From Verrucomicrobiota bacterium (GTDB lineage Bacteria > Verrucomicrobiota > Verrucomicrobiia > Opitutales > UBA953): a stretch of 64,000 bases of DNA. Below, piece by piece: positions 14,065-17,623 of the stretch. The notes beneath the pieces are model-generated. The model ran no database searches. It was not told where the DNA came from and saw only the letters and a list, made by a program, of their open reading frames with translations. Positions within the stretch are counted from its first letter, which is position 1. Every line of letters starts with the position of its first letter. Both the position numbers and the translations under genes were made by a program. The stretch spans positions 62,001 to 126,000 of the forward strand of contig VHDL01000003.1 of assembly GCA_016871415.1 (NCBI GenBank). Direction: 5' to 3'.

Positions 14065-15624
14065 ATGGCTGCCGCCCAGTCCATCGCCATCCTCGATTTC
14101 GGCTCTCAGCTCACCAAGGTGATCGCGAGGCGGGTGCGCGAGTGCAACGTCCACTCCCGCATCTATCCCTTCTCGGTGATGCCCGGGCAGCTCCGTGCTG
14201 ACGGCGTGGTCGGCGTCATCCTTTCCGGCGGTCCCGACAGCGTGAAGGCCAAGGGCTCGCCCCATCCCCATCCGGGTGTCTTTGAGATGGGCCTGCCGGT
14301 GCTCGGGATCTGCTACGGCGTCCAGCTCATGGGCCAAATGCTCGGCGGCAACGTCGCCAGCAGCCCGCACCGCGAGTACGGTCATGGCACGCTGTCCTTC
14401 GGCAAGGGGTCGCTGCTCCTGCAGGGCCTGAAATCCCCGCTTCGCGTGTGGAATTCCCACGGCGACAAGGTCACGCGCCTGCCTCGCGGCTTCAAGGCCG
14501 TGGCCCGTACGGAGAATTCAGAGTGCGCCGTGATTGAGGACTCCCGCCGCCGCTTCTTCGGCATCCAGTTCCATCCCGAGGTCGCCCACACCGAGCGGGG
14601 CATCGACATCCTCCGCAACTTCCTCTTTCGCATCTGCCGCTGCCGGGCCGACTGGGTGATGGAGGACTACCTCGAGACCGCCGTCCGCGAGATCCGCCAG
14701 GAGGTGGGCAAGTCGCAGGTCATCCTCGGGCTCTCCGGCGGCGTCGACTCCTCCGTCGCGGCGGCCCTCATCCAGCGCGCCATCGGCAGGCAGCTGACGT
14801 GCGTGTTCGTCGACAACGGCCTGCTCCGCCTCAATGAGCGCGCCCAAGTCGAGCGGATGTTCCGCGGCGAATTCAAGGTGGACCTGCGCGTCGTCGACGC
14901 CTCCTCGACCTTCCTCCGTCGGCTCCGCGGGGTCACCGATCCCGAGCGGAAACGCAAGATCATCGGCCACGAGTTCATCAAGGTCTTCGAGCGCTCGGTG
15001 GCCGAGGTGCAACGTCGCAAGAAGGGCAAGGTGGAGTTCCTCGCTCAGGGCACCCTCTACCCCGACGTAATCGAGTCGCTCTCGCCCCACGGCGGCCCCG
15101 CCGTGACGATCAAGAGCCACCATAACGTCGGCGGCTTGCCCAAGCGCATGAAGCTGCGCCTGCTCGAGCCGCTGCGGGAGCTCTTCAAGGACGAGGTGCG
15201 CGCCCTCGGCGAGGCGCTCGGCCTCCCGCGCGAGATGGTCTGGCGTCATCCCTTCCCGGGCCCCGGCCTCGCCGTCCGTGTTTGCGGCGACATCACCCGC
15301 GAGCGGCTCGACGTCCTCCGTCAGGCCGACGACATCTTCATCCGCGAGCTCCGTGAGTCTGGGCAGTACGATAAAGTCTGGCAGGCCTTCGCCGTCTTCC
15401 TGCCGGTCCGGAGCGTCGGCGTGATGGGCGACGGACGCACCTACGACAACGTCTGCGCCCTGCGGGCGGTCACCTCGTCCGACGCGATGACGGCCGACTG
15501 GGCGCGCCTGCCCTACGACGTGCTGCAGCGCGCCTCGACCAAGATCATCAACCAGGTGAAGGGCATCAACCGGGTCGTCTACGACGTCTCCTCCAAGCCG
15601 CCCGCCACGATCGAGTGGGAATGA
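14065..15624 (+). CDS. guaA: GMP synthase (glutamine-hydrolysing)
   Basis: 519 residues from ATG 14065. It converts XMP to GMP with ATP and glutamine. The N-terminal class I amidotransferase has the nucleophile C83 in GICYGVQLM and the downstream [10 protein letters not shown] with the catalytic His and Glu. The ATP pyrophosphatase domain has the P-loop [12 protein letters not shown], and the C-terminal dimerisation domain ends [10 protein letters not shown]. The start at 14065 ([15 protein letters not shown]) is preferred over ATG 14023, which overlaps the upstream gene. The family's FGSQYTQLI reads FGSQLTKVI here. Confidence 0.97.
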
Positions 15625-15674
15625 GAGCGATGGCCCGTTGACACTCCGCGTCACGGCCGCAATCTCTTTCCCGC

Positions 15675-17159
15675 TTGTCCGACAAGGCATTCCAGGTCAT
15701 CGCCCGCCGCTGGCGGCCGCGCCGCTTCGTGGAGCTGGTCGGGCAGGACCACATCGTCCGCACTCTGCGAAACGCACTGGACGGCGGCCGCCTGCCCCAC
15801 GCCTGGCTCTTCGTCGGGCCGCGCGGCACGGGCAAGACCACCACGGCCCGCATCCTGGCTAAGGCGCTCAACTGCGCGGGCGGCCCGAAGTCCGACTTCT
15901 CCCTCGACGATCCGGTCTGCCTCGCGATCGAGCAGGGTAACTGCCTCGACGTCGTCGAGATTGACGCCGCGTCGAACCGCTCCATCGAGGACGCGAAGAA
16001 GATCCGTGACGAGTGCCAGTTCTCCCCGACGAGCTTCCCGTTCAAGGTCTTCATCATCGACGAGGTCCATCAGCTGACCAAGGACGCCTTCAACGCGCTC
16101 CTCAAGACGCTCGAGGAGCCTCCCGCTTGGGTGAAGTTCATCCTCGCAACGACCGAGGCCGACAAGGTCCTGCCCACCATCACCTCCCGCTGCCAGCGGC
16201 TGGAGTTCCACCCGATTGACGAGGAGGTCATCGTCGACCAGCTTGAGCGCATCGTCAAGGCCGACGGCGTCGCTGCCGACCGGCCCGCGCTCAAGGCCAT
16301 CGCCCGCCTCGCCGCCGGAGGGATGCGCGATTCCCAGTCCATACTCGACCAAGTCATCTCCTTCTCTGGACGCAAGGTGACCGAGGCCGACGTGCTCTCC
16401 ATCTACGGGCTGGCCTCCGCCAAGCAGGTCGAAGATCTCGCCAAGGCACTCTCGCTCGGCGACGGGCCGGCCGCGCTCAGTCTCTGCGACGTCTTCCATG
16501 AGGAGGGCAGGGACCTCATCCGGGTGCTGGCCGACCTTCAGTCGCGGGTCCGTGAGGCCACGCTTGATTCGGTGCGCAAGGGCGGGGTCTCCCCGCTGCT
16601 CGGCGGCCCGCTTTCCACCGAGCAGCTCGTGAGGCTTCTGGAGTGCCTCCAGCAGGGAGAGCAGGGCGTGCGTCACGGACTCTCTCCCCGGGCCAATTTC
16701 GAGGTGACCATGCTGCAGGCCATCGAACGGGCGAGGGCGCGACCGATAGACTCGCTCATCAAGGACATCGCCGCCGCCGCAGCCGGACTCCCCAGGGAGC
16801 CCGGCCAAAAAAAAATAGGGACGCCGCCGCCCGCTGCCACGGCCGCTCCCACGCAGGCCTTGCCTGATGTGCCCGTCACCGAAGATTCTGGGGATTCCTC
16901 GCCGCCCTTGGACGTCGCGGCTGTGGAGGACGAGGCCGATCAGGCGGTACGTTGCGAGGCTTTCGTCTTTCCGGAGCTCGAGAAGTCCGTGTCCGGCGTC
17001 TCCGAGCAGGGTCGCACGGCCTTCCCCGGAGACAAGGAGTTCCAGGCCGCCGTGGACGCGTTGCCGCCCGGCCTGCGCGAGAAGCTGAAGGAGACGCTCG
17101 GCGCCGAATTCACGGCTTTGCGTCCCGTGCCCACGGGCCGCCTGCGCCGCCCTTCCTGA
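15675..17159 (+). CDS. dnaX: DNA polymerase III subunit tau/gamma, with a likely programmed frameshift site
   Basis: 494 residues from TTG 15675 (SDKAFQVIARRWRPRRF); no ATG is available in frame between the guaA end and the conserved start. It is the clamp-loader ATPase: Walker A GPRGTGKTTTA near 49-59, Walker B IIDEVHQL, sensor region ATTEADKVLPTI and SRCQRLEF. Of the four zinc cysteines usual in DnaX, C67 and C82 align and two seem missing, so the zinc knuckle may be incomplete. After residue 378 the tail is acidic and Pro/Ala-rich and only about 115 residues long. An A9 run at 16807-16815 marks that boundary (separate entry). Confidence 0.95.
   Translation: MSDKAFQVIARRWRPRRFVELVGQDHIVRTLRNALDGGRLPHAWLFVGPRGTGKTTTARILAKALNCAGGPKSDFSLDDPVCLAIEQGNCLDVVEIDAASNRSIEDAKKIRDECQFSPTSFPFKVFIIDEVHQLTKDAFNALLKTLEEPPAWVKFILATTEADKVLPTITSRCQRLEFHPIDEEVIVDQLERIVKADGVAADRPALKAIARLAAGGMRDSQSILDQVISFSGRKVTEADVLSIYGLASAKQVEDLAKALSLGDGPAALSLCDVFHEEGRDLIRVLADLQSRVREATLDSVRKGGVSPLLGGPLSTEQLVRLLECLQQGEQGVRHGLSPRANFEVTMLQAIERARARPIDSLIKDIAAAAAGLPREPGQKKIGTPPPAATAAPTQALPDVPVTEDSGDSSPPLDVAAVEDEADQAVRCEAFVFPELEKSVSGVSEQGRTAFPGDKEFQAAVDALPPGLREKLKETLGAEFTALRPVPTGRLRRPS
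16794..16850 (+). promoter_or_regulatory. Putative programmed frameshift / transcriptional slippage cassette in dnaX
   Basis: Three elements lie in order: AGGGAG at 16794-16799, a run of nine A at 16807-16815 read as CAA AAA AAA ATA in frame, and a possible stem-loop from GGGA (16818) to TCCC (16850), about nine pairs with bulges. Loss of one A puts TAG (16816-16818) in frame at once. A -1 shift adds about 17 residues and stops at 16865-16867. Either route gives a gamma-like protein of about 380-397 residues. E. coli uses AGGGAG, an A-run heptamer and a stem-loop; Thermus uses an A9 run. Confidence 0.7.
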
Positions 17160-17161
17160 AC

Positions 17162-17623
17162 ATGGGCGCATCGGCGGAGATCGGCGTCATCTCGGACACC
17201 CACGGCCGGCTCCGGCCTCAGGCGGTGAGGGCCTTGGAAGGCTGCGTCCTGGTGCTGCATGCGGGGGACGTGTGCGGGCCGCATGTCGTCGAGGAACTGA
17301 CCGCCTTCGTCGCTCCCTGCCTGGCCGTCCGCGGCAACTGCGACGATGATCCGCAACTGCCGGCATTCCTCCTCCGCGTCGAGGCCGGCGTCCGGGTGCT
17401 GGTCCACCACGGCCACCTGCCGGTCGACGAGGCTGCGCATGCGCCCGCGGTCGTGATTACCGGACACACCCATGTCCCGCTGGTCGAGAGCTGTGACGGC
17501 GTCCTGAGACTGAATCCAGGCAGCGCGGGTCCACGGCGTTTCCGCCTGCCGGTCACGGTCGCGAGGCTGACCCTCGGGGACGGCGAGCCGCGCGCCCGCA
17601 TCATTGAGCTGCCGGTCGCATGA
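17162..17623 (+). CDS. YfcE-like metallophosphoesterase
   Basis: 153 residues from ATG 17162, 2 nt after dnaX. The calcineurin-like metal-binding motifs appear in order: ISDTHGRL (D, H), HAGDVCG (D), VRGNCDD (N), VHHGH (H) and TGHTHVP (H, H). This small single-domain form matches the YfcE/MJ0936 phosphodiesterases, whose physiological substrates are mostly unknown. Its stop overlaps the start of the helicase gene (ATGA), which implies translational coupling. Confidence 0.88.
   Translation: MGASAEIGVISDTHGRLRPQAVRALEGCVLVLHAGDVCGPHVVEELTAFVAPCLAVRGNCDDDPQLPAFLLRVEAGVRVLVHHGHLPVDEAAHAPAVVITGHTHVPLVESCDGVLRLNPGSAGPRRFRLPVTVARLTLGDGEPRARIIELPVA

Follow-up and report, generated by a model that had tools for sequence, protein, structure and literature searches.

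Transcriptional slippage of the Thermus type is recognized by mRNAs that vary in their number of A residues and by the formation of two proteins in a ratio near 1:1. For the dnaX gene of Thermus thermophilus, transcriptional slippage on a run of nine A residues (A9) is described in PMC1088944 and PMC5009743. The GeneTack survey describes 17 dnaX genes divided over two open reading frames (ORFs), nine of them with A10, and opposite directions of slipping within one gene family are used there as a criterion for transcriptional over ribosomal slippage (PMC3711429). An IS630 element of Roseiflexus is described in which a nascent stem-loop, adjacent to the slippage motif on its 5' side, yields transcripts lacking one nucleotide (PMC5009743). 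In dnaX of Escherichia coli K-12 (NC_000913.3), AGGGAG is found 10 nt before A6G. The need of the cell for a short DnaX protein (gamma) beside the long one (tau) is described as long disputed (PMC5009743). In the main text of PMC3711429, Verrucomicrobia occurs once, in a genome table, and not among the named dnaX cases; some members of the phylum may already be included in the supplement of that paper. A search of the open full-text literature returned no title or abstract on dnaX frameshifting in this group. Slippage on dnaX is thus known as a kind, and within the literature searched the group-wide pattern and the hairpin presented below appear to be new.

The dnaX gene analyzed here is located at positions 15675–17159 (+ strand) of the window, which is the whole 64,000-nucleotide stretch of DNA under analysis. 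The gene starts with TTG and encodes a 494-aa tau protein in the unslipped frame. The product matches NCBIfam TIGR02397 with 371.8 bits (cut-off 250) and the Pfam families DNAX_ATPase_lid and DNA_pol3_gamma3, and a whole-genome search identified no other site above the TIGR02397 cut-off. The gene before it is presumably guaA, and the genes after it are presumably phosphoesterase-like and helicase-like, as named from the look of their translations. Rfam returned two matches only for positions 15600–17250, SNORD99 and BjrC68, both far below their gathering scores.

The A9 run occupies positions 16807–16815 (+ strand) and is read in frame as CAA AAA AAA ATA, as described in the initial annotation. 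Its final A belongs to the Ile codon ATA (16815–16817), the TA of which opens an out-of-frame stop. The resulting TAG (16816–16818) is reached at once by transcripts with A8 or A11 and would end a gamma-like product of 380 or 381 aa. Virtual transcripts were computed for four run lengths. Products of 494 aa (53.4 kDa), 380 aa (41.5 kDa), and 397 aa (43.2 kDa) are obtained for A9, A8, and A10, respectively, and a product of 381 aa for A11. The immediate TAG that had been claimed for the loss of one A is therefore present in the virtual A8 transcript, and the stop at 16865–16867 that had been assigned to a −1 shift is the TGA that closes the A10 frame; its distance from the run differs among relatives.

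In an AlphaFold2 model of DnaX, the last helix of the body spans residues 358–370, a low-confidence stretch (residues 372–445) contains the slip site (residues 378–380), and a small helical tail appears at residues 454–475. The model was made from a shallow alignment of 13 rows with a mean pLDDT of 62.6, and its N-terminal part is poorly modelled. The top Foldseek matches of the model are the clamp-loader gamma/tau chains of E. coli (E = 2.7e-21), with low TM-scores of 0.27–0.36 by query among the first 34 matches. In the model, the slip site lies in the linker behind helix 358–370. The conserved C-terminal tail that is specific to tau is encoded at 17010–17156 (+ strand) and includes the small predicted helical element at residues 454–475. 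The motif of this tail consists of a helix, a P, a second helix, and then a stretch of the form F..LR.. in the sequence. The tail gave no match in a Pfam search, and comparison with the PDB returned three matches at chance level (best E = 0.24). In this order, the tail may serve as the end of tau that binds the polymerase.

No A9 or T9 other than the dnaX run is present on either strand of the genome (2,211,368 bases), and the runner-up homopolymers in the window are an A run of 5 and a T run of 6. Under a first-order Markov model derived from the window, 0.85 A9 and T9 runs are expected per genome, and a lone A9 is therefore unsurprising by itself; it is the conservation of the run that is surprising. 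The Lys codons of this dnaX are 22 AAG and 2 AAA, both AAA codons being inside the run. The description of A9 as conspicuous in a genome where Lys is normally AAG thus holds for the uniqueness of the run and for codon usage, but about one such run would be expected anyway.

The proposed examination of the A run in related dnaX genes was conducted with 55 genomes of the genus, which were searched for A9 and in which dnaX was located separately. A run of at least nine A residues is present in all 51 genomes where the site was found, as A9 in 48, A10 in 2 (G024 and G257), and A11 in 1 (G027). No dnaX was found in the assemblies of G006, G021, G264, and G266, two of which contain a weaker paralogue. 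The dnaX run is the sole A9 in 33 of the 55 assemblies; 19 have an A9 also or only elsewhere, and 3 have none. A close set of 45 distinct sequences was compiled from 44 sequences of the genus and L077 from a sister genus. The bases directly after the run are TAA in 39 and TAG in 6 of these 45 sequences, and the loss of one A therefore gives an instant stop. The 42 close sequences with A9 read CAA AAA AAA ATA (38) or GAA AAA AAA ATA (4). Relatives that keep the frame and encode this segment with AAG codons, which according to the initial annotation would have spoken against slippage, were looked for and amount to 0 of the 45. In the 45 gene bodies, Lys is encoded by AAG (78%) or AAA (22%), Gln by CAG (75%) or CAA (25%), and ATA accounts for 3.8% of the Ile codons.

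The stop in the A8 frame is immediate in 41/41 genus sequences with A9. The stop in the A10 frame appears 2–99 codons past the run and lies within 28 codons in 39 of these 41 sequences. Both alternative frames are therefore short, as described for Thermus. The locus thus combines at least nine sense-strand A residues at the gamma/tau boundary with a one-ORF tau and nearby stops in both other frames. In three MAGs of the genus, the run at the dnaX site is longer and tau is out of frame in the DNA (L049/L179 and L070 with A10; L050/L068 with A11). These runs reflect either homopolymer assembly collapse or real variation of the kind found in the split genes of other families. Judged from these sequences, the A9 in dnaX is real and under strong selection. 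The conservation of the run and of the stop also lends good support to the predicted slippage site at the gamma/tau boundary and to the two clamp-loader forms that had been proposed.

The survey was extended to dnaX stretches from 22 family groups of the order, which provided 158 distinct sequences and lean to dnaX genes resembling that of the window. Eight of the 194 loci L002–L195 gave no dnaX match at the threshold used (L176, L183, L185, L188, L189, L190, L192, and L195). L192 (G017) is incomplete, and its run was assigned to dnaX by overlap with an earlier match; L194 is a truncated duplicate of L158 that was left out of the frame, shuffle, and class comparisons but was retained in one other step. 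Run lengths of A9 (65), A10 (81), A11 (4), A13 (1), A8 (2), and A6 (2) were found, and 3 sequences have no run of 6 or more; A9–A13 is present in 151 of the 158. The two order members with just A6 at the site are L053 (A6G), which is like the E. coli shift sequence, and L145 (A6C).

A single frame of the three is open for at least 75 codons in 150 of 155 order sequences. The open frame is the unslipped frame in 64, the −1 nt frame in 26, and the +1 nt frame in 60. The C-terminal tail motif is kept in the open frame, including that of split genes that must change frame to make tau. In a tree built from 117 DnaX bodies, in which the genus was thinned, there are at least 11 switches between genes that need a loss and genes that need a gain of one nucleotide (loss-type and gain-type, respectively), and at least 17 changes of run length. 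Lineages thus switch, in both directions, between making gamma by slipping and making tau by slipping, which favors RNA-polymerase slippage over the ribosomal cassette of E. coli. Most of the order seems, from its sequences, to use dnaX slippage.

Seventeen relatives with reduced genomes (0.8–1.3 Mb) were also collected; 2 had been collected before, and the 15 new ones are outside the 158. A9 is present in 4 of the 17 (all f26, gain-type), A8 in 1, and A7 in 4; in 8 of the 17 no run reaches 6, and in 12 none reaches 8. By eye, a tau-like tail in the plain frame is visible without a run in f6, f7, f25, and two of three f27 sequences. The corresponding loci (L225–L231, L239, and L240) look as if the slip site alone had been lost and the tau-like tail had remained. 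In f28 (L235, L237, and L241), DnaX ends about 25 aa past residue 342 (window numbering), soon after domain III, and L241 has A8. Because the reduced-genome relatives without a run mostly retain a tau-like tail, gamma by slippage is not required everywhere. Outside the order, a run of at least nine is found near the site at 3 of 20 loci of the phylum (L212 with A9, L217 with A10, and L219 with A10 and A9), and none was found among 8 loci from other orders of the same class. The two runs of L219, which belongs to another class of the phylum, are about 77 nt apart.

An RNA hairpin that the initial annotation does not mention is predicted at positions 16782–16805 (+ strand) and ends 1 nt before the A run. 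Positions 16782–16786 pair with 16801–16805 and positions 16788–16791 with 16796–16799, leaving a loop at 16792–16795 and one A·C mismatch (GCCGG-A-CUCC-ccag-GGAG-C-CCGGC). The predicted energy is −17.1 kcal/mol with a z of −2.9, and 4 of 200 shuffles are as good. With 10 extra upstream bases, the z is −1.76 and 8 of 200 shuffles are as good. Synonymous diversity was scanned in the 44 genus sequences, for which the G+C content of the gene is 48–69%. The hairpin window, formed by the eight codons that precede the run, has the lowest diversity of the 323 windows (0.165 versus a mean of 0.448, sd 0.072). The codons GAG and GGC in the hairpin are invariant in 44/44 sequences, and the synonymous variants that do occur are sited where pairing persists or where the base is unpaired. 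These are GCC/GCT and CTC/CTT opposite G, GGT/GGA at the mismatch, and CCT/CCC and CGG/AGG in the loop. In other families, the hairpin window ranks 1/221 in f20 (10 sequences), 1/221 in f8 (7 sequences), and 2/222 in f1g22 (8 sequences) for synonymous conservation. It ranks 43/221 in loss-type f17, indicating no conservation, and 107/229 in gain-type f21; f14 and f11 were not scorable.

Base pairing was counted in 19 distinct hairpins of fixed geometry. The pair cells are paired in 88.4%, compared with 14–52% when the arms are slid and 85.1% when they are shuffled. The covariation score is 0.152 versus 0.115 for shuffled hairpins, and 0 of 500 shuffles scored as high. Changes on both sides of a pair are limited to 2 pairs (5 cells), a value reached by 209 of 500 shuffles, and pair types are no more numerous than in shuffled hairpins. 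The pair counts thus provide modest support for the hairpin. The hairpin of the genus falls within the lowest 5% of the windows of its own gene in 43 of 45 sequences. Its strength does not exceed that of synonymous-codon shuffles (mean z = −0.46; p ≤ 0.05 in 1 of 45 genus hairpins, and in 13 of 108 for the other sequences) because the conserved peptide AGLPREPG itself favors the fold. Since strength beyond codon choice is unsupported, the case for the hairpin rests on synonymous conservation and on the contrast between families. The hairpin appears to be a new control element.

The contrast between families was determined for loss-type and gain-type genes. The short-run genes (under 8: L053 and L145) and the run-less L054, L055, and L056 were omitted from the hairpin tests; L008, L077, and L079, which have two long frames, were assigned to the loss class by hand, and 4 ambiguous rows were omitted from the class test. 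For the 30 nt preceding the run, z averages −1.72 in 87 loss-type genes and −0.42 in 62 gain-type genes (p = 7e-10 by sequence; p = 0.033 by family, with 16 and 10 units). When hairpins that have at least 7 pairs and end within 4 nt of the run are counted, 80 of 87 loss-type genes have one, compared with 36% of control windows from the same genes. After removal of the genus, the values are 37 of 44 and 33%, and for the gain-type genes they are 24 of 62 and 40%. Dinucleotide shuffles gave rates of 58, 41, and 41%, compared with 44/44, 37/44, and 23/61 observed in the genus, the other loss-type genes, and the gain-type genes, respectively. Hairpins are thus enriched, in these sequences, only where the product needs the loss of one nucleotide.

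A phylogenetic pairs test of hairpin and direction is not significant, with too few pairs and the same direction as the main contrast; among 6 supported independent pairs, 1.4–2.6 agree and 0.1–0.2 oppose, depending on the threshold. Counter-examples are f5, f8, f12, and f19, which are loss-type with weak hairpins, and f24, which is gain-type with a strong one. Directly after the run, 82 of 87 loss-type genes have T and 56 of 62 gain-type genes have G or C, many as an in-frame A_AAA_AAG. The presence of T after the run shows no agreement with class in the independent pairs (0.6 same, 1.0 opposite). Because gain-type runs are followed by G or C, often as A_AAA_AAG, −1 ribosomal frameshifting may take the place of slippage in the gain-type genes.

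In the proposed mechanism, RNA polymerase would slip on the A9 of dnaX, and some transcripts would contain A8, A10, A11, and so on. The A9 mRNA would be translated to tau of 494 aa, and A6 or A12 mRNA to tau with one residue less or more, respectively. The A8 and A11 mRNAs, which would read CAA AAA AAA (AAA) TAG, would give the gamma-like product of 380 or 381 aa ending in the linker just past domain III, and the A10 mRNA would give the protein of 397 aa. With the polymerase at the end of the run, the nascent-RNA hairpin, 1 nt upstream of the run, would close against the RNA:DNA hybrid and pull the RNA forward, with the omission of one A. Relative to a hybrid of 9–10 bp, the hairpin would then occupy the place of a terminator hairpin.

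The probability of this full explanation, A9 polymerase slippage with omission of one A driven by the hairpin, is estimated at about 0.68. We infer from the comparisons above that slippage takes place, that it takes place at transcription, and that the hairpin sets its direction. The formation of two DnaX products from the gene is very likely, and their origin from polymerase slippage is quite probable. For the step in which the hairpin drives the deletion, the odds are at or slightly under even. Polymerase slippage is the best account because at least nine A residues are kept (a heptamer needs seven), because both shift directions occur at one homologous site, and because the A9 of Thermus behaves in this way. 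A broader reading is tentative, with the balance leaning somewhat against it. A nascent-RNA hairpin would set the direction of polymerase slippage in an essential housekeeping gene, and the order would have shifted dnaX repeatedly between two settings, deletion driven by a hairpin and insertion (or −1 frameshifting) without one, with both clamp-loader forms kept. As part of this same tentative reading, the combination of hairpin, A9, and TAR might act like an intrinsic terminator with A in place of the U-run, pushing the polymerase forward.

The strongest rival explanation is +1 ribosomal frameshifting. The peptidyl-tRNA-Lys in AAA would slip forward while the rare ATA waits in the A site, TAA or TAG would come next, and the hairpin would refold behind the ribosome and stimulate the +1 shift. 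This mechanism predicts the identical product and stop, and the ATA codon is indeed rare (3.8% of Ile codons). In a 70S system described in PMC6321510, +1 frameshifting was stimulated and −1 frameshifting was attenuated by an upstream hairpin beside the shift site, and the association of the hairpin with loss-type genes is predicted by this rival as well. However, AAA_A would suffice for such a shift, yet 9 to 13 A residues are kept, and the mechanism cannot serve the gain-type relatives, which keep the same run. In addition, the split f20 genes L111 and L119 have ATC at this position, which is the most frequent codon for Ile in the genus sample. A +1 ribosomal shift is accordingly considered unlikely.

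A −1 ribosomal shift of the E. coli type is clearly less probable still. In this mechanism AGGGAG (16794–16799, + strand) would serve as an internal Shine-Dalgarno sequence, A_AAA_AAA as the shift site, and a downstream stem-loop as stimulator, with termination at 16865–16867. AGGGAG and A9 were both found at the positions reported in the initial annotation, and the motif precedes the run by 7 nt, compared with 10 nt before A6G in E. coli. Homopolymeric A residues permit −1 slips, the stop in that frame lies within 28 codons in 39/41 genus sequences, and gain-type families with A10G hold an in-frame A_AAA_AAG that they may use. The window gene reads CAA AAA AAA ATA and contains no in-frame A_AAA_AAG, and the stop for a −1 shift wanders from 2 to 99 codons past the run, whereas the stop after the loss of one A is immediate in 41/41. 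AGGGAG is present as claimed, but it is read here as the end of the loop and the 3' arm of the inner stem of the upstream hairpin, in which other paired positions are also conserved. The GAG of GGGAG is invariant in 44/44 genus sequences, as is the preceding pair of G residues (CGG in 41, AGG in 3), and AGGGAG is absent from many other families that have the run. A Shine-Dalgarno reading leaves the kept CCGGC arm and the restriction of the 5' arm to pyrimidines unexplained.

The downstream stem-loop that had been annotated at 16818–16850 was not confirmed. Its energy is −13.9 kcal/mol with a z of −0.81, 38 of 200 shuffles are as good, and its sequence differs among close relatives. A weak excess of downstream folds is found in the genus (31 of 44 versus 48% in shuffles; mean z = −0.79), which would favor the −1 ribosomal shift. 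No excess is found in the other loss-type genes (7 of 44 versus 29%) or in the gain-type genes (23 of 61 versus 39%). The downstream stem-loop is not well supported as a stimulator, given a fold in the window that is not significant and a genus excess that is weak and variable in sequence.

The least probable alternative is that tau is the sole product and that the run persists owing to the peptide QKKI, by chance, or as a site of replication slippage (phase variation), for which the A10 or A11 runs in the three genus MAGs, the Markov expectation of about one A9/T9 per genome, and the reduced-genome relatives that manage without a run can be cited, but the run contains no synonymous codons in 45/45 close sequences, the out-of-frame stop is fixed, and in other families the split genes cannot yield tau without a change of frame.

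The kept run, the kept out-of-frame stop, and the switching between split and whole genes without loss of a product suggest that both forms of DnaX matter in most of the order. The reduced-genome lineages with tau and without a run indicate cases in which the cell may do without the short form. The order also offers a natural series, with runs of A8–A13, with or without the hairpin, and with loss or gain of a nucleotide, on which the rules that govern slippage in bacteria could be tested. In this order, many dnaX genes may be truncated at the gamma stop by gene finders.

Compared with the E. coli −1 cassette (NC_000913.3), the locus shares AGGGAG, an A-run near the end of domain III, and a short product, which is predicted here. 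It differs from that cassette in that A_AAA_AAG is missing, the downstream stem-loop of the window is not significant, and the fixed stop is in the other frame. The two-ORF dnaX genes of the GeneTack survey likewise have poly-A at the gamma/tau boundary, and tau needs a frame change in many relatives in the order (PMC3711429). The genus differs from them in its one-ORF form, and order-wide switching and a hairpin are absent from the text of PMC3711429 as available. The Roseiflexus IS630 element described in PMC5009743 also has a stem-loop adjacent to the slippage motif on the 5' side and the loss of one nucleotide, which is the direction needed (and predicted) in this dnaX. The motif there is T5C5 in a transposase, unlike the A9 in a replication gene here (PMC5009743). 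Given A9 instead of T5C5, this dnaX may work like the Roseiflexus type and is not counted as a member of it. The closest resemblance is to Thermus dnaX, with a sense-strand A9, tau in one ORF, and stops in the other frames near the run (PMC1088944, PMC5009743). Gamma is obtained from slipped transcripts in Thermus, as described in those papers, and the same origin is proposed here. The present gene differs from Thermus dnaX as published in the portions available by the conserved hairpin directly 5' of the run and by the kept immediate stop in the −1 nt frame, and this order differs from Thermus in that its other families use split genes.
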